Origin: an uncultured Bacteroidales bacterium
GTDB taxonomy: Bacteria; Bacteroidota; Bacteroidia; Bacteroidales; Bacteroidaceae
Length of the DNA stretch: 50,983 nucleotides
Reading direction: 5' to 3'
NCBI GenBank assembly: GCA_902763885.1
Contig: CACWTU010000019.1
Coordinates: 1-50,983, forward strand
Position 1 is the first letter of the stretch; each line of letters opens with the position of its first letter. Shown piece after piece: positions 3,511 through 50,960 of this stretch. The notes below the pieces were generated by a model, which worked only from the letters and a program-made list of their open reading frames with translations, was not told the DNA's origin and ran no database searches. The position numbers and the translations under genes are program-made.

Positions 3511-3529
3511 AGTAAGACATCACAAGAGA

Positions 3530-3615
3530 GGGGCACAAAAGGGACGGTTCTTTTTGTGCCCTTCTTTTTTTTCAAGTAAAAGGGACACAAAGAGAACCGT
3601 CCCCTTTGTGCCCCT
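3530..3615. repeat. inverted pair of REP-like hairpins (REPIN-like)
   Basis: Two hairpin-forming repeats of one family lie in opposite orientation, 18 bases apart: 3530-3562 (GGGGCACAAAAGGGACGG.. to ..TTTTTGTGCCC) and 3581-3615 (GGGACACAAAGAGAACCG.. to ..CCCCTTTGTGCCCC). Each folds on itself through GGGCACAAA/TTTGTGCCC, and together they can fold into one long hairpin. The first is followed by CTTCTTTTTTTT and can end transcription of the plus-strand sigma operon. The second can do so for nrdG coming from the other side. Closely related copies occur at 19789-19821 and 20040-20072. Confidence 0.85.
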
Positions 3616-13031: not shown

Positions 13032-15056
13032 TTATCGGCGGGATTTCTTTGGCTTGGTGACGGTGCGGGATGCTTTGCGTCCGTTCACTTTTTCTTTACG
13101 GCCCGATGACTTCTTCTCCTTGCGTTTGGATGGCACAGTAGGGACTGTCCCCTTTGTGCCATTTCGGAAGAACTGACGCCAGTCACCGTTTTCAAAATCG
13201 CGCCAGAAATCATCATCCTGCGCCACCTGCACCTTGGGGGCACGTTTAGGAGTGCGTGATGTCTTTTCCTCGCGATAAGCTCTCTCCTCACGGGTTGGCT
13301 TACTCTCCTTATGAGGTTTAGCCTCCCTACGGGGTTTATCCTCACGATAAACTTTCTCTTCCCGAACTGGTTTCTCTTTACGGGGTTTGCGTTCACGTGC
13401 CGGTTTCTCTTCCCGTGGGGTTCCATCCTCTGAGCGTGTCTCGGCAACCTCCACATTTACCTCACGGCCCTTGTAGTTCACCCCGTTCATGCCCTCAATA
13501 ATCTCCTCTGTGTACTCCTCCGGGCACTCAAAGAATGAGAAGCTCTGCATCAGGTCAATACGGCCCACATCCACGCGCCCGGCTACATTACGGTTGAGCA
13601 TCTCAATGATATGGACTGGCTGTACGTGATCCTTCTTACCTATATTGATAAAGAAACGGGTATAACCTTTCTGAGCCCGATGACGGTCCTTTTTCTTACG
13701 TTTCTCTGCATCAGCATCACTACGGGTTACCTCCTCCAGTTCAGGAGCATCCTGATAGTAACGCACAAACCGTCCGAACTCACGGGTCACGATACGCTTT
13801 ATGATATCATTCTTGTCCATCCAATCCAGACGGCGGAAAATCTCAGGCAGGAACTTCTCAATCTGTTCCTCATTAACCTGAATGCGCTCCAGGTCATCAA
13901 TAACCTTGTAGAGTTGCTTCTCACATATCTGGGTACCGGTAGGCATCGTACCCTGCACGAATGTCTTGCCGATGGCCTTCTCTATGAAACGGATCTTGCC
14001 TTTCTCACGCAGATTGACGATTGATATGGATACACCCTTCTTACCTGCTCTGCCTGTACGGCCGCTGCGATGGGTATAGTTCTCAATATCATCAGGCAGT
14101 CCAAAGTTTATAACATGAGTCAAATTATCCACATCAAGACCGCGTGCAGCCACATCAGTAGCCACCAAAAGCTGCAGCTGATGCTTGCGGAACTTGTTCA
14201 TAGTGAGGTCACGCTGTGCCTGTGACAGGTCACCGTGCAGTGAATCGGCATTATAGCCGTCCTGCATCAGCTTATCGGCAATCTCCTGCGTCTCCAGACG
14301 GGTACGGCAGAAAATGATTGCGTATATGGATGGGTAATAGTCAACAATACGTTTCAGAGCCAGGTACTTGTCTTTGGCATGTACCATATAATAGACATGC
14401 TCCACGTTCTCAGCACCCTCATTACGTGTGCCGATGACAATCTCGCGGGCATGATTCAGGTACTTCTGCGATATGGCCTGAATCTCCTTGCTCATGGTGG
14501 CCGAGAACATAAGCATCTTACGCTCTACGGGAACCGATGACAGAATCTTCTCCAGATCCTCAGAGAAACCCATATTGAGCATCTCATCGGCCTCATCAAG
14601 GATTACGGTGCGGATTGTGTCAAGACTCACCACACCACGTTCCATAAGGTCAATAAGACGGCCCGGAGTGGCTACAATCACGTGTGCTCCGCGCTTGAAA
14701 TTACGTATCTGGTTCTCTATCGATGAGCCACCGTACATGGGGATTACGTGCAAGCCCTCTATATAGTGGGAGAAATCAGCCAGGTCACTGGCTATCTGCA
14801 CACACAGCTCACGCGTAGGGCTAAGTATAAGGAACTGAGCCTCTGAACTATCTACATCAGTCTGCTGGATTACCGGAATGCCGTATGCGGCAGTCTTGCC
14901 GGTTCCGGTCTGGGCCAATGCCACTACATCACCGCTGCCCTCCTCCAAAAGGTATGGTATGACAGCCTCCTGGACCGGCATGGGCTGCTCAAATCCAAGT
15001 TCCTCAATTGCCTTGAGTATCCTCTCAGATACACCAAGTTCACGGAATGAACTCAT
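13032..15056 (-). CDS. DEAD-box ATP-dependent RNA helicase, CsdA/DeaD type
   Basis: 674 residues. Motifs in order: Q motif (FRELGVSERILKAIEELGFEQPMPVQ), Walker A AQTGTGKT, PTRELCVQ, VILDEADEMLN, SAT, then the second RecA domain with HRSGRTGRAG. A DbpA-like RNA-binding domain lies at about 475-550 (TRFFINIGKKDHVQPVHIIEMLNR), followed by a long Lys/Arg/Glu tail. It unwinds structured RNA in ribosome assembly and cold adaptation. The tail contains an in-frame REP-like repeat (13130-13162) coding for NGTKGTVPTVP. The gene lies 12 bases behind the coiled-coil membrane protein gene, in a run that starts with valS. Confidence 0.95.
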   Translation of the reverse strand: MSSFRELGVSERILKAIEELGFEQPMPVQEAVIPYLLEEGSGDVVALAQTGTGKTAAYGIPVIQQTDVDSSEAQFLILSPTRELCVQIASDLADFSHYIEGLHVIPMYGGSSIENQIRNFKRGAHVIVATPGRLIDLMERGVVSLDTIRTVILDEADEMLNMGFSEDLEKILSSVPVERKMLMFSATMSKEIQAISQKYLNHAREIVIGTRNEGAENVEHVYYMVHAKDKYLALKRIVDYYPSIYAIIFCRTRLETQEIADKLMQDGYNADSLHGDLSQAQRDLTMNKFRKHQLQLLVATDVAARGLDVDNLTHVINFGLPDDIENYTHRSGRTGRAGKKGVSISIVNLREKGKIRFIEKAIGKTFVQGTMPTGTQICEKQLYKVIDDLERIQVNEEQIEKFLPEIFRRLDWMDKNDIIKRIVTREFGRFVRYYQDAPELEEVTRSDADAEKRKKKDRHRAQKGYTRFFINIGKKDHVQPVHIIEMLNRNVAGRVDVGRIDLMQSFSFFECPEEYTEEIIEGMNGVNYKGREVNVEVAETRSEDGTPREEKPARERKPRKEKPVREEKVYREDKPRREAKPHKESKPTREERAYREEKTSRTPKRAPKVQVAQDDDFWRDFENGDWRQFFRNGTKGTVPTVPSKRKEKKSSGRKEKVNGRKASRTVTKPKKSRR
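13130..13162. repeat. REP-like hairpin inside the helicase gene
   Basis: ATGGCACA (13130-13137) and TGTGCCAT (13155-13162) are perfect arms around TAGGGACTGTCCCC, itself a GGGAC/GTCCC palindrome. The repeat resembles the intergenic ones (GGCACA..GGGAC..CCCCTTTGTGCC) but here is exactly 33 bases, 11 codons, and keeps the frame. It adds a Gly/Thr/Val/Pro stretch to the otherwise Lys/Arg/Glu-rich tail. Confidence 0.8.
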
Positions 15057-15965: not shown

Positions 15966-18655
15966 TATTTCTTAAGAGCAGCCATGCTCTCCTTTATGGT
16001 TGCTATCTTCTGAGTGGCATCAGCCTGTTTCTTGCGCTCGTTCTCAACGACGGCAGCAGGAGCGTGTGCCACAAAGTTCTCATTAGAAAGCTTGGCGTTG
16101 ACACCCTTGAGGAATCCCTCAAGGTGCTGCAACTCAGCTTCCATCTTCTTAAGTTCAGCCTCCACGTCAATGAGTCCGCCCAAACGTACTGCATACTCCT
16201 GGGTACCCACCATGAACGCAGCTGTACCCTCACTCTTGACAGCTACTACAACAATCTCATCCAGTCCGGCCATCTTGAGTATCACGCTGTTCATTGCCTC
16301 AAGCGGGTTGCTGCCTACAGCCTCAACAGTAAGCGGCTCACGCGGGCCGATGTTCTTGGCCTTGCGCACTGAGCGGATCTCAGTTACCACCTGCTTGGCC
16401 TGCTCAAACTGATCAAGCAGAGCAGTATCGGCCTTACCCTTTACAAGATCAACGATAGTCTGGTTCATGATGCTCTCACCATCCTTGCGCTCGCGTACTG
16501 CATGCCAAAGTTCCTCAGTGATGAACGGCATGAACGGGTGAAGCAGCATAAGCAGCTGCTCAAACATATCAAGTGTGGCAGCATAGGTCTTAGAGTCAAT
16601 GGGCTGTCCATAAACAGGCTTGATGATCTCCAGATACCAGCTTGCAAACTCATCCCAGAACAGTTTATATACAGCCATCAGGGCCTCACTGATGCGGTAC
16701 TTTGACATCAAGTCATCCATCTCAGCGGCAGTGCTGTTCAACTTGCTGCGGAACCACTCTACTGCAACCTTTGCGCTCTCAGGCTGATCTATATCGGCTA
16801 CGGTCCATGTCTGTGTAAGACGGAACGCATTCCAGATCTTGTTGTTGAAGTTACGGCCCTGTTCGCAGATGGCCTCATCAAACGGTATGTCGTTACCTGC
16901 GGGAGCCGATAGCATCAGTCCCATACGTACACCGTCGGCTCCGTACTGCTCAATCAAACCTATCGGATCGGGAGAGTTACCAAGTGACTTACTCATCTTG
17001 CGGCCCAGTTTGTCACGTACGATACCGGTAAAGTATACGTTGCGGAAAGGCATATCGTGGCGGTACTCATAACCCGACATGATCATACGGGCCACCCAGA
17101 AGAATATGATATCCGGGCCGGTCACAAGGTCATTTGTGGGATAGTAGTACTTGATCTCATCGTTATCGGGGTTGTTGATGCCGTCAAAGAGGCTGATAGG
17201 CCAGAGCCATGAGCTGAACCATGTATCCAGCACATCCTCATCCTGACGCAGATCTGCAGCGGTCAGGCTGTTGTCACCGCTCTTGGCGCGTGCCAGTTCG
17301 ACAGCCTTCTCAATTGTCTCAGCAACTACAAATCCGCCCTTGGGCATGAAGTAAGCCGGAATACGGTGACCCCACCAGAGCTGACGGCTTATGCACCAGT
17401 CCTTGATGTTCTCCAGCCAGTTGCGGTATGTGTTCTTATATTTGGGCGGATAGAACTTGAGTTCATCATTCATTACAGGAGGCAGAGCCATATCGGCAAA
17501 GTGCTGCATCTTGAGGAACCACTGCATGGAGAGCTTGGGCTCAATAACAGTGTCCGGATTGCGCTCGCTGTAACCCACCTTGTTGGTGTAATCCTCCATC
17601 TTCTCTAAAAGACCGGCGGCATCCAGGTCTATGGCAATCTGCTTCTTTACGGCAAAGCGGTCCATGCCGATGTAAAGGCCGGCCTTCTCGCTCAGTGTAC
17701 CGTTGTCGTTGAAGATATCGATGGTCTCCAGGTTGTACTTCTCACCCAGCATATAGTCATTGACATCGTGGGCAGGGGTTACCTTCAAGCAACCGGTACC
17801 GAACTCAATGTCAACGTAATCATCTTCAATTACAGGAATCACACGGTTAACCAGAGGTACAATCACCTTGTGACCCTTGAGCCAGACGTTCTTAGGATCA
17901 GCGGGATTGATGCACATTGCGGTATCACCCATGATGGTCTCGGGACGTGTGGTGGCAACCACAGCGTAGTAGCCCTTGGCATCCTTGTGTACCACCTCAC
18001 CCTCGGCACCGGTGGTCTTTACAGGATTCTCGGCGGCATCGGCAACATAGTACTTGAGATAGTACAGCTTGCTGTGCTCCTCCTTGTAAACGACCTCCTC
18101 ATCACTGAGTGCTGTCTGAGCCTTGGGGTCCCAGTTCACCATACGTACGCCACGGTAAATCAGGCCCTTGTTGTAGAGGTCCACGAACACCTTGATCACG
18201 CTCTCTGAGCGCAGGTCATCCATGGTGAATGCGGTGCGGTCCCAGTCACAGCTGCAGCCAAGACGGCGCAACTGCTTGAGGATTATGCCTCCGTGCTCCT
18301 CTTTCCACTCCCAGGCGTGCTTAAGGAACTCCTCACGGGTAAGGTCAGTCTTCTTGATACCTTCCTTGGCAAGCTTGGCCACAACCTTAGCCTCAGTTGC
18401 TATTGATGCATGGTCAGTTCCGGGTACCCACAGGGCGTTCTTGCCCATCATGCGGGCACGGCGCACCAGGATATCCTGGATTGTGTTGTTGAGCATATGA
18501 CCCATGTGAAGCACGCCGGTCACATTTGGTGGCGGAATGACTATTGTGTAAGCCTCACGGCCATCAGGCTCTGAGTGAAAAAACTTGCCATCCTCCCAAT
18601 ACTTGTACCACTTTCCCTCCACATCGGCGGGGTTGTATTTGCTTGCTAATTCCAT
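15965..18655 (-). CDS. valS: valyl-tRNA synthetase
   Basis: 896 residues, normal for a bacterial class Ia ValRS. The HIGH motif is HMGH at residues 50-53 ([16 protein letters not shown]) and KMSKS is in [12 protein letters not shown]. The editing domain includes [13 protein letters not shown] and [12 protein letters not shown]. The C-terminus is the tRNA-contacting coiled coil ([20 protein letters not shown]). It charges tRNA-Val and removes misactivated Thr. It heads a minus-strand run with the coiled-coil protein and the RNA helicase. The structured element E1 begins 61 bases upstream of its ATG. Confidence 0.98.
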
Positions 18656-18684
18656 AAAGAAATAACTGTTTTCGTAATTGGGTG

Positions 18685-18692
18685 CAAAGGTA
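18685..18692 (-). promoter_or_regulatory. valS promoter -7 box
   Basis: On the minus strand TACCTTTG is a perfect TAnnTTTG, 29 bases before the ATG. The -33 position falls at about 18713-18719, at the edge of element E1 whose left arm starts at 18716, so E1 and this promoter touch. Confidence 0.6.
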
Positions 18693-18715
18693 CTGCTTTT
18701 TTCTCATTATTAAGG

Positions 18716-18884
18716 AAAAACTTGAAGGATATAGTATCCCAAACTTCGCTTCGCTCTTCCCTCCCACAACAAAAAATATCGATTCCGAAACTCTGTTCCA
18801 GAATCGATATTTTTTGTCGCGGGCCCCTCCCTCTGACGCGCCGAGGGTGGCGACGGTTTTTGAGACTATATCCTTCAAGTTTTT
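18716..18884 (+). repeat. structured element E1 (nested inverted repeats, candidate ncRNA or MITE)
   Basis: This fills most of the 345-base gap between valS and mazG. Outer arms: 18716-18735 pairs perfectly with 18865-18884 (20 bp, AAAAACTTGAAGGATATAGT); with mismatches the arms extend to 29 nt, ending AAAC/GTTT (18744/18856). Inside, in order: a small hairpin GC-TTC-GC, TCCCTCCC (18758-18765), a perfect 17-bp hairpin (18769-18785 with 18801-18817, 15-nt loop), GGGCCCCTCCC (18821-18831), a CGCC..GGCG hairpin and GGTGGCGACGGTTT (18846-18859). Element E2 at 19846-20029 has the same plan in reverse orientation, with different stem sequences. There is no open frame of note. Confidence 0.85.
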
Positions 18885-18975
18885 GCTCGCCTAGAAGAAG
18901 CAGCAAATACAGAATCTTTCTTTTAGTGAATGATGGATCTGTTTTTGTCATGCAACAAACACGCGAATAAAGAAT

Positions 18976-18983
18976 TATCTTTG
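18976..18983 (+). promoter_or_regulatory. mazG promoter -7 box
   Basis: TATCTTTG is a perfect TAnnTTTG, 17 bases before the ATG at 19001. A TTTG at 18944-18947 is 28 bases upstream, further than the usual spacing. Confidence 0.5.
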
Positions 18984-19000
18984 CGGCAAAATACAGAATC

Positions 19001-19786
19001 ATGCATACTAAAGAGGAAAAGATGCAGGCGTTCGGACGCTTGCTTGACATAATGGATGAGCTCAGGGAGAAGTGCCCTTGGGATAGTGTCCAGACCAATG
19101 ATTCACTGCGTCAAAACACCATTGAGGAGGTCTTTGAACTTTGCGATGCCATAATGAAAGACAATAAGGCCGATATATGCAAGGAGTTGGGCGATGTCTT
19201 GCTGCACGTAGTCTTCTACGCAAAGATAGGCAGCGAGACCGGCGATTACGATATCAAGGACGTTTGTGACAAGCTCTGCGACAAACTGATATACCGCCAT
19301 CCGCATATCTACGGCACTACCAATGTAAACGGTGCAGAGCAGGTGCTGCAGAACTGGGAACAGCTCAAGCTCAAAGAGAAGGGTGGTAACAAACGTGTGC
19401 TGGCAGGCGTGCCCGATGCCCTGCCATCAATCATCAAGGCTTTCCGCATACAGGAGAAGGCCGCTCATGTGGGTTTTGACTGGGATACTCCGCAGGGGGC
19501 ATTGGATAAGGTCCGTGAGGAGTATGCTGAACTCAGTGCGGAGATATCGGCCAATGACAAGGAGAAAGCAGAGCAGGAGCTGGGTGACCTGCTGTTCTCA
19601 ATCATCAACGTGGCGCGTCTCTACAAAATCCATCCCGATGACGCACTGGAGCGCACCAACAAGAAGTTCATACGCCGCTTCAACTATGTTGAGGAGGCCG
19701 CCCTTTCTAACAATCGTCAACTCAAAGACATGACCCTGGATGAGATGGACGCCCTCTGGAACGAAGCGAAAAGTAAAGGTTTATAA
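19001..19786 (+). CDS. mazG: MazG nucleoside triphosphate pyrophosphohydrolase
   Basis: 261 residues with two MazG repeats. The first (about 10-110) has LREKCPWDSVQTNDSLRQNTIEEVFELCDAI and the EExxE/ELGDVLLHVVFYAK metal-binding helices. The second (about 150-255) has VREEYAELSAEISANDKEKAEQELGDLLFSIINVARL. The ELGDxL pairs bind Mg2+. MazG hydrolyses NTPs/dNTPs to NMP and PPi (house cleaning; ppGpp-related effects in E. coli). It is a single-gene unit: promoter box upstream, and a REP hairpin with T run 2 bases after the stop. It is bracketed by E1 and E2 in opposite orientation. Confidence 0.95.
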   Translation: MHTKEEKMQAFGRLLDIMDELREKCPWDSVQTNDSLRQNTIEEVFELCDAIMKDNKADICKELGDVLLHVVFYAKIGSETGDYDIKDVCDKLCDKLIYRHPHIYGTTNVNGAEQVLQNWEQLKLKEKGGNKRVLAGVPDALPSIIKAFRIQEKAAHVGFDWDTPQGALDKVREEYAELSAEISANDKEKAEQELGDLLFSIINVARLYKIHPDDALERTNKKFIRRFNYVEEAALSNNRQLKDMTLDEMDALWNEAKSKGL

Positions 19787-19788
19787 TT

Positions 19789-19821
19789 GGGGCACAAAGG
19801 GGACGGTTCTTTTTGTGCCCC
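19789..19821 (+). repeat. REP-like hairpin, left member; also mazG terminator
   Basis: 33 bases, GGGGCACAAA..TTTGTGCCCC with GGGGACGGTTC in the loop side. It is an exact reverse complement of 20040-20072. It starts 2 bases behind the mazG stop and is followed by TTTT, so it can act as a terminator. Confidence 0.88.
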
Positions 19822-19845
19822 TTTTGATAATAATCCAAGGTGCAC

Positions 19846-20029
19846 AGAACTTTTGAGGTATCGGTATCGGAAACCATGGCCGCCCGTGGGCTTGTGAACG
19901 GGAGGGGCCCGTGCTTAAGAAGATGCTCTGGAAGGTAGGAGTTTACTCATGCCTTTCAGAGCGTCTTATTAGGGATGGGAGGGATAGCGCGAAGCGCGTA
20001 GTTTCAGATACTGATACCTCAAAAGTTCT
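19846..20029 (-). repeat. structured element E2 (nested inverted repeats, sister of E1)
   Basis: This occupies most of the 338-base gap between mazG and the GH30 gene. Outer arms 19846-19874 and 20001-20029 pair over 29 nt with one G-U and one mismatch. Read on the minus strand, the order is arm ending GAAAC, hairpin GCGC-TTC-GCGC, TCCCTCCC, inner hairpin (19952-19967 with 19920-19935, 16 bp including two G-U), GGGCCCCTCCC, a GCCC-AC-GGGC hairpin, GGCGGCCATGGTTT, arm. The same blocks stand in the same order in E1. The element lies 24 and 10 bases inside a perfect inverted REP pair, so 19789-20072 may be one composite unit. Confidence 0.85.
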
Positions 20030-20039
20030 CTTGGAAAGA

Positions 20040-20072
20040 GGGGCACAAAAAGAACCGTCCCCTTTGTGCCCC
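20040..20072 (-). repeat. REP-like hairpin, right member
   Basis: 33 bases, GGGGCACAAAAAGAACCG..CCCCTTTGTGCCCC, the exact reverse complement of 19789-19821. The pair encloses E2. On the minus strand it lies downstream of the GH30 stop at 20125 and could terminate that transcript. Confidence 0.88.
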
Positions 20073-20124
20073 TGGGCAATGTCCCTGAAGGGTGTATTCC
20101 TCCTGTTCCCTTTCTAAACCAGAA

Positions 20125-21627
20125 TCACTTGCAAGCGACAATAAAGGTAGTGACAGAGTTGGGGGCTAAAGTTACTTTTAGAGTTGAGCCTTTGACTTTT
20201 GGGAGTGTGGTTTCGGCCCAGTGTTCTCCGTCTGCGAATTGGCCGCTGGTTCGGATTTGACGGACCTGACCTTTCAGTTTGAGGCCTTCTGTATTGAATT
20301 CCACTTCTTTTGGTTCTGATGTAGTATTGGTGCATACCAGCGTCAGAGTCTTTTTGTCCTTTGCAGCCAGGGCTTTGACGCCGGAGCGGCGGTCGGTGGG
20401 GCAGTTGATCAGGGTTGAGCCGGGACGGATGTAGCGGGTAAACTGACCCATGGCGTAGTACTTCTGGGTAAGCAGGATTTCATTAGTATCGTGGTTGGCA
20501 CAGGCGGTTCCCCAGTAGCCTCCGGCAGTGCGGAGCGGACCTCCGTCACGACGGCCTTTGTAGCCATCCTTGCTTATGTGGGTGTCTATCACCTGCCAGA
20601 GCACCCAGGCTGATGGTTCAAGAGCCTGAATATCGGTTATTATCTTCTCTGCAAGCCACAGGCCGGCAGCCATCTCACCTGCGTTCTGTCCGGCGGTCCC
20701 GTTGCCGTCCACCTCACTCATCCAGAGGTTTATCTTCTCATCCTTGGCCAGTTGACCCATCTCGCGGATGCTGTTTACTCCGTAGGTGTGTACACTTATG
20801 CGGTTTATTGCTGCGCGGGCATCGGGGGTAAGAGTCTTGATCTCCTCTATCTGCTTGCCAGGATTGGTCTCATCGCTGGTGGTAAGGATTATATCTTTCA
20901 GGCCGTAACGGTTCAGTGCCTCTTTTGTGAGAACAAGCAACTTGGACTGTGACTCGCCGGCATCGATGTGGCAGCCCTCCTGCTTGTAGTTCATGGCGGG
21001 CCAGTAGTTGGTATTGGGCTCATTCATGGGCGATACGCTCTTTACCTTGAGTTTCATCTCACGGGTCATATAGTTAGCCACGTGAGCCATGTACTCGGCA
21101 AAGTCATCATACTCATCATCCTTTATGTTGTTCTCCTCGGCCTTGAAGTTACCGGTGGAGCAACCGCTGTTGGTCATAAAGTATGGCGGTGAGTTGCTGA
21201 ATATCTCCAGATAGGCATCCTGTCCAGCTGCTTTCATGGCAGCCTTTACCACATTCAGCTGGCGGGCATCGGCAGTATAGTCATACTTGCGCTCTCCGGT
21301 GGCGGGGTCTATTATCATCCAGCCGGGGACATCGCTGTCAGTGCGGGTAATATGATGATGCGTAGGGTCATCACCGCCACCCACGTTGTAGCGCATAATG
21401 TTCAGGCCAAGCCCCTGCTTGGCATCAAAGAACAGCGCTGCACTCTTGGCTGTAAGAGTCTCATTATACCCGATGCGGTTAGCCCACCAGCACAGACTGG
21501 TACCCCATCCTTCCCAATATCCTCCGTTGGTCTGGATAGCATTATCCTTAGAAACTTTTATGACCGTACTCTCAGCATGGCAAACCAGACTGGTAGCCAG
21601 CAACAAAACAAATGCGATTCTTCTCAT
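20125..21627 (-). CDS. secreted GH30-family glycoside hydrolase (endo-beta-1,6-galactanase-like)
   Basis: About 500 residues from ATG 21627 (MRRIAFVLLLATSLVCHAES), which gives a clean signal peptide; an in-frame start at 21648 would lie in the upstream hairpin. The catalytic barrel begins with GYWEGWGTSLCWWANRIG. The acid/base Glu is in SPMNEPNTNYW and the nucleophile Glu in LWMSEVDGNG. A C-terminal beta-sandwich (about 410-500) ends in VTLAPNSVTTFIVACK. The GWGTSLCWW signature resembles GH30 endo-beta-1,6-galactanases, so an arabinogalactan-type substrate is likely but not certain. There is no SusC/SusD pair nearby, so it is not in a classical PUL. Confidence 0.87.
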   Translation of the reverse strand: MRRIAFVLLLATSLVCHAESTVIKVSKDNAIQTNGGYWEGWGTSLCWWANRIGYNETLTAKSAALFFDAKQGLGLNIMRYNVGGGDDPTHHHITRTDSDVPGWMIIDPATGERKYDYTADARQLNVVKAAMKAAGQDAYLEIFSNSPPYFMTNSGCSTGNFKAEENNIKDDEYDDFAEYMAHVANYMTREMKLKVKSVSPMNEPNTNYWPAMNYKQEGCHIDAGESQSKLLVLTKEALNRYGLKDIILTTSDETNPGKQIEEIKTLTPDARAAINRISVHTYGVNSIREMGQLAKDEKINLWMSEVDGNGTAGQNAGEMAAGLWLAEKIITDIQALEPSAWVLWQVIDTHISKDGYKGRRDGGPLRTAGGYWGTACANHDTNEILLTQKYYAMGQFTRYIRPGSTLINCPTDRRSGVKALAAKDKKTLTLVCTNTTSEPKEVEFNTEGLKLKGQVRQIRTSGQFADGEHWAETTLPKVKGSTLKVTLAPNSVTTFIVACK

Positions 21628-21640
21628 AACAGCGCGAAGA

Positions 21641-21710
21641 TAGCACAAAAGGATCGTTTCCCTGTGCCATTTCTAAAAAAATGACACAGGGAAACGATCC
21701 TTTTGTGCTA
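21641..21710. repeat. 31-bp inverted repeat, long hairpin
   Basis: Arms 21641-21671 (TAGCACAAAAGGATCGTTTC..) and 21680-21710 pair over 31 bp with a single C/T difference; the loop is TCTAAAAA. The GCACAAAAGG and CCTGTG blocks relate it to the REP-like family, though the core sequence differs (GGATCGTTTCCC). It fills the gap between the beta-barrel gene (stop 21715) and the GH30 ATG (21627), and may end the first transcript. TATCTTCG (21636-21643 on the minus strand), resembling a -7 box for GH30, overlaps its edge. Confidence 0.85.
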
Positions 21711-21714
21711 TTGT

Positions 21715-22230
21715 TTAAAGCTTTATTGAAAAACCGATACGTAATTCCGGCATTCTGTATGATACACCCGCCTCAGCCATTACACCAAAATTCTCTGTAA
21801 AGAAGAAACGGCAACCAACCATATCATTCCATGTGATAAAGAGATTCTCACTGGTCTTGTCATTAACTTTATCTTTCTCACTCTGTAAACCTAATCCCAT
21901 TCCTACTATGGCATGAACCTCAAACTTAGGAGTAATATTGAGACCATATGTTACACGAGGAGTAAATCCAAAGTTCTTATCGTTCAAAGCTTTATTTTCC
22001 CATGTTGAGAAACCGACCTCACCACCAACGGTAAAGTGTCCCTTCCACCATTCGTCAACCAAGACATAATCCAATGAGACTGTGGTACCGAAATCTGCAT
22101 TGTCACCTATACCGATATTTGCATTGGCAATCATTGTACCTTTTGACCACTGGGGAGCAAGCTCAGCTTTAGCAGTGTAAGAAACCAGCACCAAAGCTGC
22201 AACAGCCATAATTTTTACGATTCTTTTCAT
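21715..22230 (-). CDS. small outer-membrane beta-barrel protein
   Basis: 171 residues. Signal peptide MKRIVKIMAVAALVLVSYTAKA, then alternating amphipathic strands (ANANIGIGDNADFGTTVSLDYVLV; HFTVGGEVGFST; FTPRVTYGLNITPKFEVHAIVGMGLGL; FGVMAEAGVSYRMPELRIGFSIKL). The ending in a hydrophobic beta-strand is typical of outer-membrane barrels of about eight strands. The family (OmpW/PorT-like) cannot be fixed. It has its own -7 box at 22262-22269 and is separated from GH30 by a long hairpin. Confidence 0.82.
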   Translation of the reverse strand: MKRIVKIMAVAALVLVSYTAKAELAPQWSKGTMIANANIGIGDNADFGTTVSLDYVLVDEWWKGHFTVGGEVGFSTWENKALNDKNFGFTPRVTYGLNITPKFEVHAIVGMGLGLQSEKDKVNDKTSENLFITWNDMVGCRFFFTENFGVMAEAGVSYRMPELRIGFSIKL

Positions 22231-31046: not shown

Positions 31047-31925
31047 ATGAAAAGATATCTGATAGGTATTCCCGTTGTACTGGCACTTTTGTTTGCCACC
31101 AATTGCAAGAACAACAATGCAGCTGCCCCTGTTGAGGAGGTTGATGCCGATACCATCATTCTGGATGCTGACCAATATGTGCGTTTTGAAACGACAGAGG
31201 GTAATTTCACGATAAAACTTTACCGCGAGACCCCGTTGCACCGTCACAACATGGTGCGTCAGGCACGTAAAGGTTTCTATGACAACCAGCTGTTTTTTGG
31301 AGTACAGAAAGGCTACAAGATTCAAGCCGGTGATGTGAAATCCAAAAACGCCAAGCCCGGACAGGAGATTGGAGTGGATGAAGAGAATGACACCATAATG
31401 TCTGAGATCAATCCTTGGAAATTCTACCATAAACGCGGAGCTGTGGGCCAGGCCAGCACGGTACAGTTCAAGTACTCCACCAGCCAGCAGTTCTACATAA
31501 TAACCGGCAGCAAGGTCAAGACCAATACCCTAACATCACAGGAGAACAAGATTAACAAGCGTTACCGTCAGGTTGTAAAGGACTCACTGACCCAGTTCCA
31601 TGCAAAAGAGTTGCGTGAATGGAAAAAATTTGGTGAGAACAAAAAAATAAGCAAGCTGAATGACCAGCTCAACAAGCAAACTGATGAAATAATGAAAACA
31701 CGCAAGTCATTCAGCTACTCCAAACAACAGACCAAGGAGTATGCCGATATTGGCGGAGCTCCCACCTTGGACGGCATGTACACCGTTTTTGGTGAGATAT
31801 GCGACGGAATGGATGTTGTTGATGCCATATCACAATTGCCGGCCATACGTAAAAACGGCCGCCCCGATCCCGATGTAAAGATAATCAGAGCCTACGTCCT
31901 AAACGACACCCTCCAGGCTCAATAA
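31047..31925 (+). CDS. cyclophilin-type peptidyl-prolyl isomerase, lipoprotein
   Basis: 292 residues. Signal MKRYLIGIPVVLALLFATNC with a lipobox-like end. The cyclophilin core starts FETTEGNFTIKLYRETPLHRHNMVRQARKGFYDNQLFF and continues with GAVGQA..SQQFYIITG and the C-terminal GGAPTLDGMYTVFGEICDGMDVVDAI. A charged helical insertion of about 70 residues (NKINKRYRQVVKDSLTQFHAKELREWKKF..) separates the halves. It would assist folding of envelope proteins. A truncated paralogue lies at 43551-43997; 94 bases (31479-31572) are identical to it. Confidence 0.93.
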   Translation: MKRYLIGIPVVLALLFATNCKNNNAAAPVEEVDADTIILDADQYVRFETTEGNFTIKLYRETPLHRHNMVRQARKGFYDNQLFFGVQKGYKIQAGDVKSKNAKPGQEIGVDEENDTIMSEINPWKFYHKRGAVGQASTVQFKYSTSQQFYIITGSKVKTNTLTSQENKINKRYRQVVKDSLTQFHAKELREWKKFGENKKISKLNDQLNKQTDEIMKTRKSFSYSKQQTKEYADIGGAPTLDGMYTVFGEICDGMDVVDAISQLPAIRKNGRPDPDVKIIRAYVLNDTLQAQ

Positions 31926-43195: not shown

Positions 43196-43559
43196 CTACA
43201 ATTGACTTGCAGTGTCTTTGAAACTCTGCCACAGTGAATCCTGCGGCAGGGGGGCTCTTACATCGACCGTGATGTGTGATACAGGGTGCTCAAATGTAAC
43301 ATGGAACGCATGGAGTGATATGCTGCCATCAGGGTTGGAGCGCTCGGCTCCGTACTTGAGATCACCCTTGATGGGGCAACCCATGCTGGCCAACTGGCAC
43401 CTTATCTGGTGATGGCGGCCGGTGAGCAGCTCAACCTCAAGCAGATGATAGTTGGTGGAGCTGGCCACAAGGCGGTAATTCAGCGCCGCATGCTTGCTGC
43501 CCGGCACCTCATGGTTATATGCATAGGAGCGGTTCTGTTTCTCGTTGCGAACCAGCCAG
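43196..43559 (-). pseudogene. 5'-truncated RluA-family pseudouridine synthase
   Basis: About 120 codons of the C-terminal half are intact and in frame (WLVRNEKQNRSYAYNHEVPGS; YHLLEVELLTGRHHQIRCQLASMGCPIKGDLKYGAERS; to the stop near 43196), closely matching the complete gene at 44023-44706 in protein but clearly diverged in DNA. The N-terminal half, with the catalytic HRLD motif, is missing. The frame is cut off at 43551-43559, where sequence of a cyclophilin gene on the other strand begins. No start codon or promoter remains, so it cannot make an active enzyme. Confidence 0.9.
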
Positions 43560-43997
43560 CAGTTCTACATAATAACCGGCAGCAAGGTCAAGACCAATAC
43601 CCTAACATCACAGGAGAACAAGATTAACAAGCGTTACCGTCAGGCTGTGAAGGATTCCATTACCATTCCCCATTCACGTGACCTCAACAAATGGCAGAAA
43701 TACGGTGAGAAAAATAAGATCAGCAAGCTGAATGACCAGTTGAACGCTCAGACTGACGCCATAATGAAAACCCGCAAGTCATTCTCATACTCACCTGAAC
43801 AGATCAAGCAATACGGCGAGATAGGCGGTGCACCTAACCTTGACGGATTATACACGGTTTTCGGTGAGATCTCAGAAGGTATGGATGTAGTAGAAAAGAT
43901 AAACGCCATGCCTACCGGTAAGAACGGACGTCCCAATCCCGATGTAAAGATCATAAGGGCATACGTCCTTGAAGAAACTGCCGCCCCTCAGCAATGA
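43551..43997 (+). pseudogene. 5'-truncated cyclophilin-type isomerase
   Basis: The C-terminal half of a paralogue of the lipoprotein at 31047-31925 (SQQFYIITGSKVKTNTLTSQ; GGAPNLDGLYTVFGEISEGMDVVEKI; end EETAAPQQ). The signal peptide and the first half of the cyclophilin fold are gone; a TTG at 43545 is the only possible start and lies in the neighbouring fragment. The first 94 bases (43551-43644) are identical to 31479-31572; after that the two diverge sharply. It ends tail-to-tail with the intact RluA gene, 25 bases away. Confidence 0.9.
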
Positions 43998-49862: not shown

Positions 49863-50786
49863 ATGAGAAAAATCATATCAATTTTAGCACTAACACTCGC
49901 AACGAGTGTATTTGCTCAACAGGAAATACGTCTGTATGATGGCATAGCACCCGGCAGTGAGGGTGTACAGGACAATGAACGCATTTCACGCGGCCCAGAC
50001 GGAAGCATCCAAAGCATATCCGGTGTAGTAACTCCTTCCATAACAATATATCTGCCCAGTGCCGATAAAGCTACAGGCACAGCCGTAATCCTATGCTCCG
50101 GCGGAGGCCTGATGTCACACTCATGGGGCACAGATGTCATCAATATGGCCCATTGGCTCAATGAGCGCGGCATAGCTGCCATCGGTCTCAAATATCGTAC
50201 CCGAGTAATGGGCGGTGGTCCCGGAATGGGTGCAGGACGGCCTATGGGTGGCGGAGCCGGACGTCAAGGCGGACTCAGTGCCACAGTAACCGAATTCTCC
50301 AAGATAACAAAATCCAATGCCAACCCCGATACCTCTGAAGGCGGAATAAAGAACATAGACAACGCCATTAATGACGCCCTACGTGCAATGGAGATAGTAC
50401 GTGGACATGCTACAGAGTGGCATATTGACCCCAACAAAATAGGTTACCTAGGCTTCTCCGCAGGCGGTGGTGTTGGAATAGGAGCAACCGTAAGGGCCGA
50501 TGATGCACACCGTCCTGCTTTCATGGCAACCATTTACGGTCCTTCTCTCATTGATGTGGAGGTACCGCAGAACGCCCCGAAGCTCTTCATAGCCACCCGA
50601 GGCGACCACCACAACGTAGCTGCCGGCCTGGTATCACTTTATCTGGATTGGAAACGTGCAGGAGCCAACGCCGAGATGCACCTCTACGATGACGGAACCG
50701 GCCCCTTCGGTCCCGACGACCCAGGCAATACCAGCGGAACCTGGCGCGAATCCTTCTACCGCTGGCTCACCTTCAACAAGTTCTGA
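49863..50786 (+). CDS. secreted alpha/beta hydrolase (esterase-like) with atypical C-terminus
   Basis: 307 residues from ATG 49863 (MRKIISILALTLATSVFAQ), a clean signal peptide; the in-frame ATG at 49824 would bury it. The fold features are GTAVILCSGGGLMSHSWGTD (oxyanion region) and the nucleophile elbow GYLGFSAGGGVG. It resembles the Bacteroidetes esterase/acetylxylan-esterase-like group. A Gly/Met/Arg-rich insertion (MGGGPGMGAGRPMGGGAG) of about 30 residues lies before the elbow. Where the group normally has GGHGFG with the catalytic His, this protein reads DDGTGPFGPDD, with no His. Activity is therefore uncertain. Confidence 0.85.
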   Translation: MRKIISILALTLATSVFAQQEIRLYDGIAPGSEGVQDNERISRGPDGSIQSISGVVTPSITIYLPSADKATGTAVILCSGGGLMSHSWGTDVINMAHWLNERGIAAIGLKYRTRVMGGGPGMGAGRPMGGGAGRQGGLSATVTEFSKITKSNANPDTSEGGIKNIDNAINDALRAMEIVRGHATEWHIDPNKIGYLGFSAGGGVGIGATVRADDAHRPAFMATIYGPSLIDVEVPQNAPKLFIATRGDHHNVAAGLVSLYLDWKRAGANAEMHLYDDGTGPFGPDDPGNTSGTWRESFYRWLTFNKF

Positions 50787-50960
50787 ATGTACCATTGGGG
50801 TCAGTCCCCTTTTGCACTTGAAATGTACCATTGGGGTCAGTCCCCTTTTGCACTTGAAATGTACCATTGGGGTCAGTCCCCTTATGCACTTGTTGAAGTT
50901 AGTGACTGTCGCTTAACTAATCAGGTGACAAAAGGGGACAGACCCCAATGGCACATTGAA
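50786..50960. repeat. REP-like cluster: three 36-bp direct copies plus one inverted copy
   Basis: The unit AATGTACCATTGGGGTCAGT.. starts at 50786, 50822 and 50858 with a 36-base period; each has the palindromic core GGGG-TCAGT-CCCC followed by TTTTGCACTTG (TTATGCACTTG in the third). A fourth copy is inverted at 50921-50960 (TCAGGTGACAAAAGGGGACA..), with GGGGTCTGTCCCC as its core. The first copy begins on the stop codon of the hydrolase. The palindromic core and inverted arrangement relate it to the other REP-like repeats in this window. Confidence 0.88.

Follow-up and report, generated by a model that had tools for sequence, protein, structure and literature searches.

Two structured elements, E1 and E2, flank mazG in opposite orientation within a 50,983-nucleotide stretch of DNA (the window) from an uncultured bacterium of the Bacteroidaceae. 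Both belong, with practical certainty, to a structured and dispersed family that is apparently undescribed, no description of it having been found in the open-licence literature. The preferred reading, held with a probability of about 0.56, is that E1 and E2 are dispersed, non-autonomous insertion elements recognized in a folded, single-stranded form, resembling REP and MITE elements but with an unusual pseudoknotted core. The arguments for this reading are the dispersal of the copies, their presence or absence in relatives, the short valS-mazG gaps at other loci, the REP-like flanks, the maintained pairing, the lack of orientation bias, and the scarcity of divergent sites. Against it stand the failure to find a mobilizing enzyme and the persistence of many copies at one site, which is more like a kept function.

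E1 occupies positions 18716 to 18884 and E2 positions 19846 to 20029 on the other strand, each with the blocks described by a sequence-only reading of the window. Read along E1 and the reverse complement of E2, these are a 29-nucleotide arm, a small hairpin, CCCTCCC, a variable inner hairpin, GGGCCCCTCCC, a third structured block, and the closing arm; the 29-nucleotide arms fall within inverted repeats I5 and I7. Folded as single strands, E1 reaches −72.9 kcal/mol (z, −8.5) and E2 −79.8 kcal/mol (z, −9.1), and none of 200 dinucleotide shuffles was as good in either case. Members of the family are about 120 to 200 bp long and consist of a closing palindrome (P1), variable in sequence and length, around a core made up of a hairpin (P2) with a pseudoknot, a long inner hairpin (P3), and usually a further hairpin (P4).

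On the G-rich strand of E2 (plus), the 5′ arm of P1 (19846 to 19874) pairs with the 3′ arm (20001 to 20029). Between them lie P2 (19875 to 19894), whose loop carries the 5′ pseudoknot strand CCCGT (19883 to 19887), the 3′ pseudoknot strand ACGGG (19898 to 19902), P3 (19908 to 19979) with its CCC-G...U-GGG closing, and P4 (19987 to 19997), which reads GCGC-GAA-GCGC. On the G-rich strand of E1 (minus), the 5′ arm (18856 to 18884) pairs with the 3′ arm (18716 to 18744). They enclose P2 (18837 to 18855), with one bulged U, the pseudoknot stem (18829 to 18847), in which GAGGG (minus strand of 18829 to 18833) pairs with CCCTC in the P2 loop (minus strand of 18843 to 18847), an AT-rich P3 with CCC/GGG closing (18763 to 18823), found both as inverted repeat I9 and by folding, and a P4 of the GCGAAGC type (18745 to 18757).

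The sequence-only reading had counted a family of two members, a figure that the genome does not bear out. The 2.71-Mb genome has 25 occurrences of GGGCCCCTCCC and none of the reversed control pattern. By eye, 24 of the 25 are recognizable as family members (the exception being L012), and a covariance model gave 27 matches, E1 and E2 among them. A chance origin was rejected on these counts and on z scores below −8. Within the window, covariance model R1, whose seed contained neither E1 nor E2 itself but did include near copies of E2, matched E2 (19853 to 20022, plus strand, 108.3 bits, E = 1.4e-26) and E1 (18723 to 18877, minus strand, 81.8 bits, E = 1.6e-19) and nothing else. The window also contains other repeats. 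A near-perfect palindrome at 21640 to 21711 (33-nucleotide arms, 97% complementary, 6 nucleotides apart) lies between open frames listed at 20125 to 21648 and 21715 to 22230, three tandem copies of a 36-nucleotide unit holding GGGGTCAGTCCCC are found at 50786 to 50893, and two stretches 12 kb apart (31479 to 31909 and 43551 to 43978; repeat families D3, D5, and D11) are piecewise 75 to 95% alike.

A covariance model search of Bacteroidales genomes, as the sequence-only reading had proposed, placed the family mainly in one genus. Within the genus, R1 gave 315 matches, spread over 33 of the 37 genomes, with 0 to 35 copies per genome in drafts of 62 to 100% completeness. Under stricter filters, by which weak matches are lost, it matched in 4 of 294 other genomes of the order, belonging to four other families (best E, 1.6e-19), and in 0 of 394 other genomes sampled from the phylum; three sampled genomes of other genera in the same family gave no R1 match. 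Over 61 genomes, GGGCCCCTCCC was found in 31 of the 37 of the genus; outside it, 4 of 24 genomes of other families contained the sequence, which is the control level. A wider exact core pattern gave no match in viral_contigs and retrieved 97 stretches in named genomes, all Bacteroidales, Bacteroidaceae, or Prevotellaceae by title; the sources named are ruminant forestomach, reindeer feces, and horse feces, and RUG in genome names stands for rumen genomes.

Pairing is conserved across the family while sequence is not. The alignment of G-rich strands (A3; 44 sequences, E1 and E2 excluded) took 41 of 45 parsed short-P3 copies, dropped L072 (bulged), L084, L119, and L137 (right arm damaged), and added L004, L038, and L040; three others were trimmed by 2 to 8 nucleotides. 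In A3, which leans toward well-paired copies because of this row selection, 94.0% of cells are paired (shuffled mean, 71.3%), 28 of 37 pairs show two-sided changes (21.5 in shuffles), and covariation is 0.545 (0.153 in shuffles, with no slid version above 0.118), the shuffled and slid controls being tree free; none of 500 shuffles was as high on all five measures. An unaided RNAalifold prediction recovered P1 to P3, as well as two of four pairs in P4, and gave P2 two further pairs, of which one is invariant and the other covaries (A-U in 24 and G-C in 20). Furthermore, 17 matches from other families, none of them in the seed, have 94.6% of cells paired and two-sided changes in 28 of 37 pairs in an alignment that leans toward the model because it was fitted to it. 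The arms, parsed in 69 of 145 copies (those parsable, distinct, and scoring at least 16), pair yet differ between copies. The claim that arms and inner stems differ in sequence and still pair is thus borne out by strong covariation across the family, and the many compensatory changes agree with the selection on structure, as in a noncoding RNA or a hairpin-recognized mobile element, that had been proposed from E1 and E2.

The CCCTCCC and GGGCCCCTCCC blocks are conserved, as had been noted, but they are partly paired: their CCC and GGG ends close P3. These three pairs never vary and are therefore not proven by covariation. P3 also contains a near-invariant G-U pair (41 of 44 sequences in A3, with A-U in the other 3) and ranges in size from a minimal hairpin to cassettes of ~65 nucleotides. 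Among the long P3 hairpins (e.g., 19911 to 19975), a few much-alike cassettes recur in copies with differing arms, which suggests that they are modules exchanged between copies. P4 differs in sequence from copy to copy, and some copies from other families lack it.

The third short hairpin of the sequence-only reading corresponds to P2, which is only part of the structure at that point; an H-type pseudoknot is added to it. CCCNN in the P2 loop pairs with NNGGG a few nucleotides downstream, and the two are exact complements in 63 of 69 distinct segments, drawn from 130 distinct cores (shuffle mean, 22; maximum in 2,000 shuffles, 33), with five types of NN (GA/TC, AC/GT, GT/AC, AT/AT, and GC/GC). 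The six misses comprise four copies with loop inserts (L020, L026, L053, and L144), one masked copy (L080), and one decayed copy (L033). The pseudoknot was counted apart from A3 because the gap in its loop is misplaced there. A second repeat, of the TCGTCGCTCGGTATAGAAAAC type, is nested between the pseudoknot strands in L011, L020, and L026, and L053 has a related-looking insert.

Of the two strands, the G-rich one (minus in E1, plus in E2) most likely does the folding. The sequence-only reading took the opposite strand, which was rejected as less stable in 43 of 44 sequences and poorer in wobble pairs. Over the four helices of A3, the G-rich strand has 99 G-U cells versus 17 A-C cells, and its mean gain in stability over the complement is 7.0 kcal/mol. 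In the arms alone (69 copies), the C-rich strand has 57 A-C and 12 G-T cells, equivalent to 57 G-U cells on the G-rich strand, many of the 57 being one shared column, and with alignment columns 12 and 13 set aside the G-U excess in P1 is weak (18 versus 12 cells). On the G-rich strand, the pseudoknot follows the classical H-type order and its first loop is a single nucleotide; the loop lengths of the other strand appear unfavorable. The case for the G-rich strand thus draws on columns 12 and 13, pairs 27-41 and 60-76, stability, and pseudoknot geometry, the last as a matter of judgement. RNA is slightly more likely than single-stranded DNA as the folded form.

A known RNA family was ruled out, no Rfam match lying at or near threshold. 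Comparison with Rfam 15 at the gathering threshold found no family for E1 or E2 and only tRNA in the whole window, and at E values up to 10 the interval from 18650 to 20120 gave seven matches, all to miRNA, rox1, or scaRNA models and far below threshold. The sequence-only reading had named an Rfam match, or a want of further copies with compensatory changes, as grounds for abandoning its claim; further copies with such changes were found, and no Rfam match was.

Gene context was typed for 92 of 145 copies (62 sites) with mechanically called open frames and was compared with 161 control gaps of 30 to 700 bp (frames of ≥100 amino acids, 97 loci) chosen by rules slightly unlike those for the element sites. 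The sites comprise 28 convergent, 29 tandem, and 5 divergent cases, against 24, 82, and 55 control gaps, respectively, giving an excess of convergent sites (Fisher P = 5e-6) and a deficit of divergent ones (P = 4e-5); E1 itself is at a divergent site. At tandem sites, 13 copies lie with the genes and 16 against them, showing no bias. The enrichment between convergent genes (28 of 62 versus 24 of 161) favors a role as a bidirectional transcription terminator or stabilizer of mRNA 3′ ends, in which the long P1 acts both ways and the core is incidental, and the symmetry of P1 would make orientation immaterial. This role leaves the asymmetric, conserved core and its pseudoknot unexplained and is improbable as the main explanation. 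A terminator scan restricted to loops of 3 to 8 nucleotides, in which P1 is not callable and which therefore has no bearing on this role, picked out only the left REP-like palindrome and a 5-pair stem in the E1 core, a yield close to the shuffle mean of 1.4. Just outside P1 of E1, positions 18885 to 18894 (minus strand; plus-strand letters GCTCGCCTAG) form a possible conserved box. Of 97 sites, 43 have similar letters (TTCY-GYKCRCYT.GG) next to P1, a count for which a loose by-eye pattern, used with no chance control, fixed the six middle letters, so that the box is a lead only. The flanking open frames of 12 loci from other families showed no common protein by eye.

E2 lies between REP-like palindromes of the GGGGCACAAA...TTTGTGCCCC type, at 19789 to 19821, within 19785 to 19822, on the left (plus strand) and, inverted, at 20040 to 20072, within 20036 to 20073, on the right (minus strand), which together form inverted pair I3. 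Such palindromes, alone or as inverted pairs, also occur at 3526 to 3615 and 13132 to 13160. The REP-E-REP composite recurs in the genome: 8 of the 25 pattern occurrences, E2 included, lie between inverted REPs. The genome has three Y1 transposase genes, one of which (L257) is flanked by an REP palindrome of the E2 type. Together, E2, the seven other copies between REPs, and this Y1 gene are what would be expected if the elements were REP/BIME units moved by a RAYT (Y1) transposase. That explanation is very improbable, as the other 17 occurrences have no flanking REP pair, the core is far larger than an REP, and across 37 draft genomes copy number does not track Y1 genes (Spearman rho, −0.02), with G007, for example, 97% complete, having 22 copies but lacking a Y1 gene; RAYT was rejected as the mover on this last ground. 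In the same genome, all 20 occurrences of a 3′-half pattern, which misses E1-type copies, fell within copies already identified. Neither a copy interrupted by a gene nor an autonomous relative was thus seen with this pattern, and a gene inside the element was likewise rejected, as the pattern revealed none.

Filled and empty sites in close relatives, which the sequence-only reading had suggested looking for, are clean for some copies, including E2 with one REP. Thirteen candidates yielded five clean comparisons at three places. E2 and one REP (251 bp) are absent from relative G020, where a single REP, the counterpart of the left one, stands alone; a REP-E-REP composite of 304 bp in L017 and L102 is missing at one place in L127; and L058 (195 bp) and L115 (197 bp) share one place that is empty in L135. 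Comparisons of L005 and L067 with L039 and of L134 with L095 were ragged, and for L044/L068, L058/L115, and L068/L148 the alignments were poor or the site was not empty. For E1, the site in L154 is not cleanly empty, as other bases of the gap differ too. The valS-mazG gap (valS read from its translation) is 345 bp here and 75 to 113 bp at 16 of 20 other measurable loci, in a sample of 30 loci that includes this one and 9 with no valS match in the sequence covered; the remaining four gaps are 150, 243, 1025, and 0 bp, the last probably an alignment fault. In G020 (L153), a 352-codon open stretch lies upstream of mazG, with no valS match within 1,500 bp. The comparison of L050 with L095 looks like loss, as a piece of the right arm of L050 is retained in L095, and presence or absence by itself therefore does not tell insertion from loss. 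Only two independent clean sites show candidate target duplications, ATT in one case and either TA or ATA in the second, and target-site duplication in the family is not proven. At the shared point in L135, the outer flanks of L058 and L115 match while their cores have opposite orientations, which we read as one insertion with a flipped core and which argues against a strand-specific role for the neighboring genes.

Many sites are common to several species among the matches listed. One place, between genes read as an aminotransferase gene and carA, is occupied in six genomes, five placed by locus comparison (translated for one) and the sixth (L033) by a flank match, its core being decayed. In 20 same-site pairs picked among the matches listed, and in a best-pairing register that favors paired states, 472 arm pairs are unchanged, 44 have changed on both sides with compensation, 52 have changed on one side, and 7 have changed on both sides but do not form a Watson-Crick pair; there are also 6 indels. 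Four copies from the carA site account for six of the 20 comparisons, which are therefore not independent of one another. By our estimate, ~3 compensated changes would be expected if the two sides changed independently. The comparison excluded pairs with wholly different inner arm types, such as L003/L149, L010/L137, and one L044/L086 pair. This compensation can be explained either by selection acting at the site or by template switching that corrects the palindrome, and these data cannot separate the two.

The main rival explanation is a structured noncoding RNA with a host function, either trans acting or a 3′-untranslated-region element for processing or stability, that was amplified and whose individual copies are retained because the folded RNA of each functions where it lies. 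The 44 compensated changes, the covarying pseudoknot, the near-invariant G-U pair in P3, which is typical of RNA, and the location at gene ends, with one place occupied in six genomes, all speak for it and make it possible, if on balance unlikely. It fits poorly with the lack of orientation bias relative to tandem genes (13 versus 16), with the inverted core at one shared site, and with the uneven copy number, including no match in 4 of the 37 draft genomes of the genus. In addition, no promoter-like site was found in 18600 to 20150 with a sigma-70 pattern, which does not cover Bacteroidetes promoters.

Integron attC sites are read as a folded single strand, vary in sequence, and keep their pairing, and in this they may resemble E; to our knowledge, the pseudoknot and P3 of E have no attC counterpart. 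MITEs, by comparison, have terminal repeats conserved in sequence, and ERIC and NEMIS are among the MITE-like repeats. E is likewise noncoding, multicopy, and present or absent between relatives, but its arms differ between copies yet pair, and no parent transposon was seen in the genome with the half-element pattern. The MITE-like BrickBuilt elements of Porphyromonas gingivalis are short, non-autonomous, and dispersed, with inverted repeats and presence or absence between relatives, as in E (PMC5771137). REPs are described as single hairpins of 20 to 40 bp tagged GTAG or CGTC; like E, the REP/BIME and RAYT system is intergenic, palindromic, and multicopy, and REP-like palindromes flank E2, whereas E has its greater length, P1 to P4 with a pseudoknot, hypervariable arms, and a copy number independent of Y1 (PMC3733652). 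STAXI shares with E a covarying pseudoknot and a discussion of RNA or single-stranded DNA as the acting form but consists of two or three tandem repeats near genes for DNA-handling proteins, whereas E is single and dispersed, with a long P1 (PMC2864571). Candidates of the HMP2_4078 type are palindromic, 80 to 132 nucleotides long, and from Bacteroidetes; compared with E by description, they may be the same (PMC8040213).

For the insertion elements preferred here, the folded G-rich strand would be the form read by an enzyme that acts in trans to move or copy them. Copies may survive mainly at gene ends because promoter insertions are lost, and selection, template switching from one arm to the other, or a combination of the two might keep the P1 arms complementary. 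A more speculative and rather unlikely proposal is a new class of mobile structured RNA element, in which the pseudoknotted G-strand RNA moves or guides by itself, being copied into DNA or directing its own insertion with an enzyme supplied in trans; the closing helix would then be a palindrome that evolves fast, corrects itself, and is written anew at every site.

As Rfam 15 has no model for the family, routine annotation will not mark its copies. Intergenic palindromic repeats are usually simple hairpins. The E family combines a covarying pseudoknot with inner hairpins that vary, arms whose changes are matched, and a core found in either orientation at one site, and it is a dense natural data set on how palindromes stay complementary and on whether short bacterial repeats travel as folded RNA or as folded DNA.
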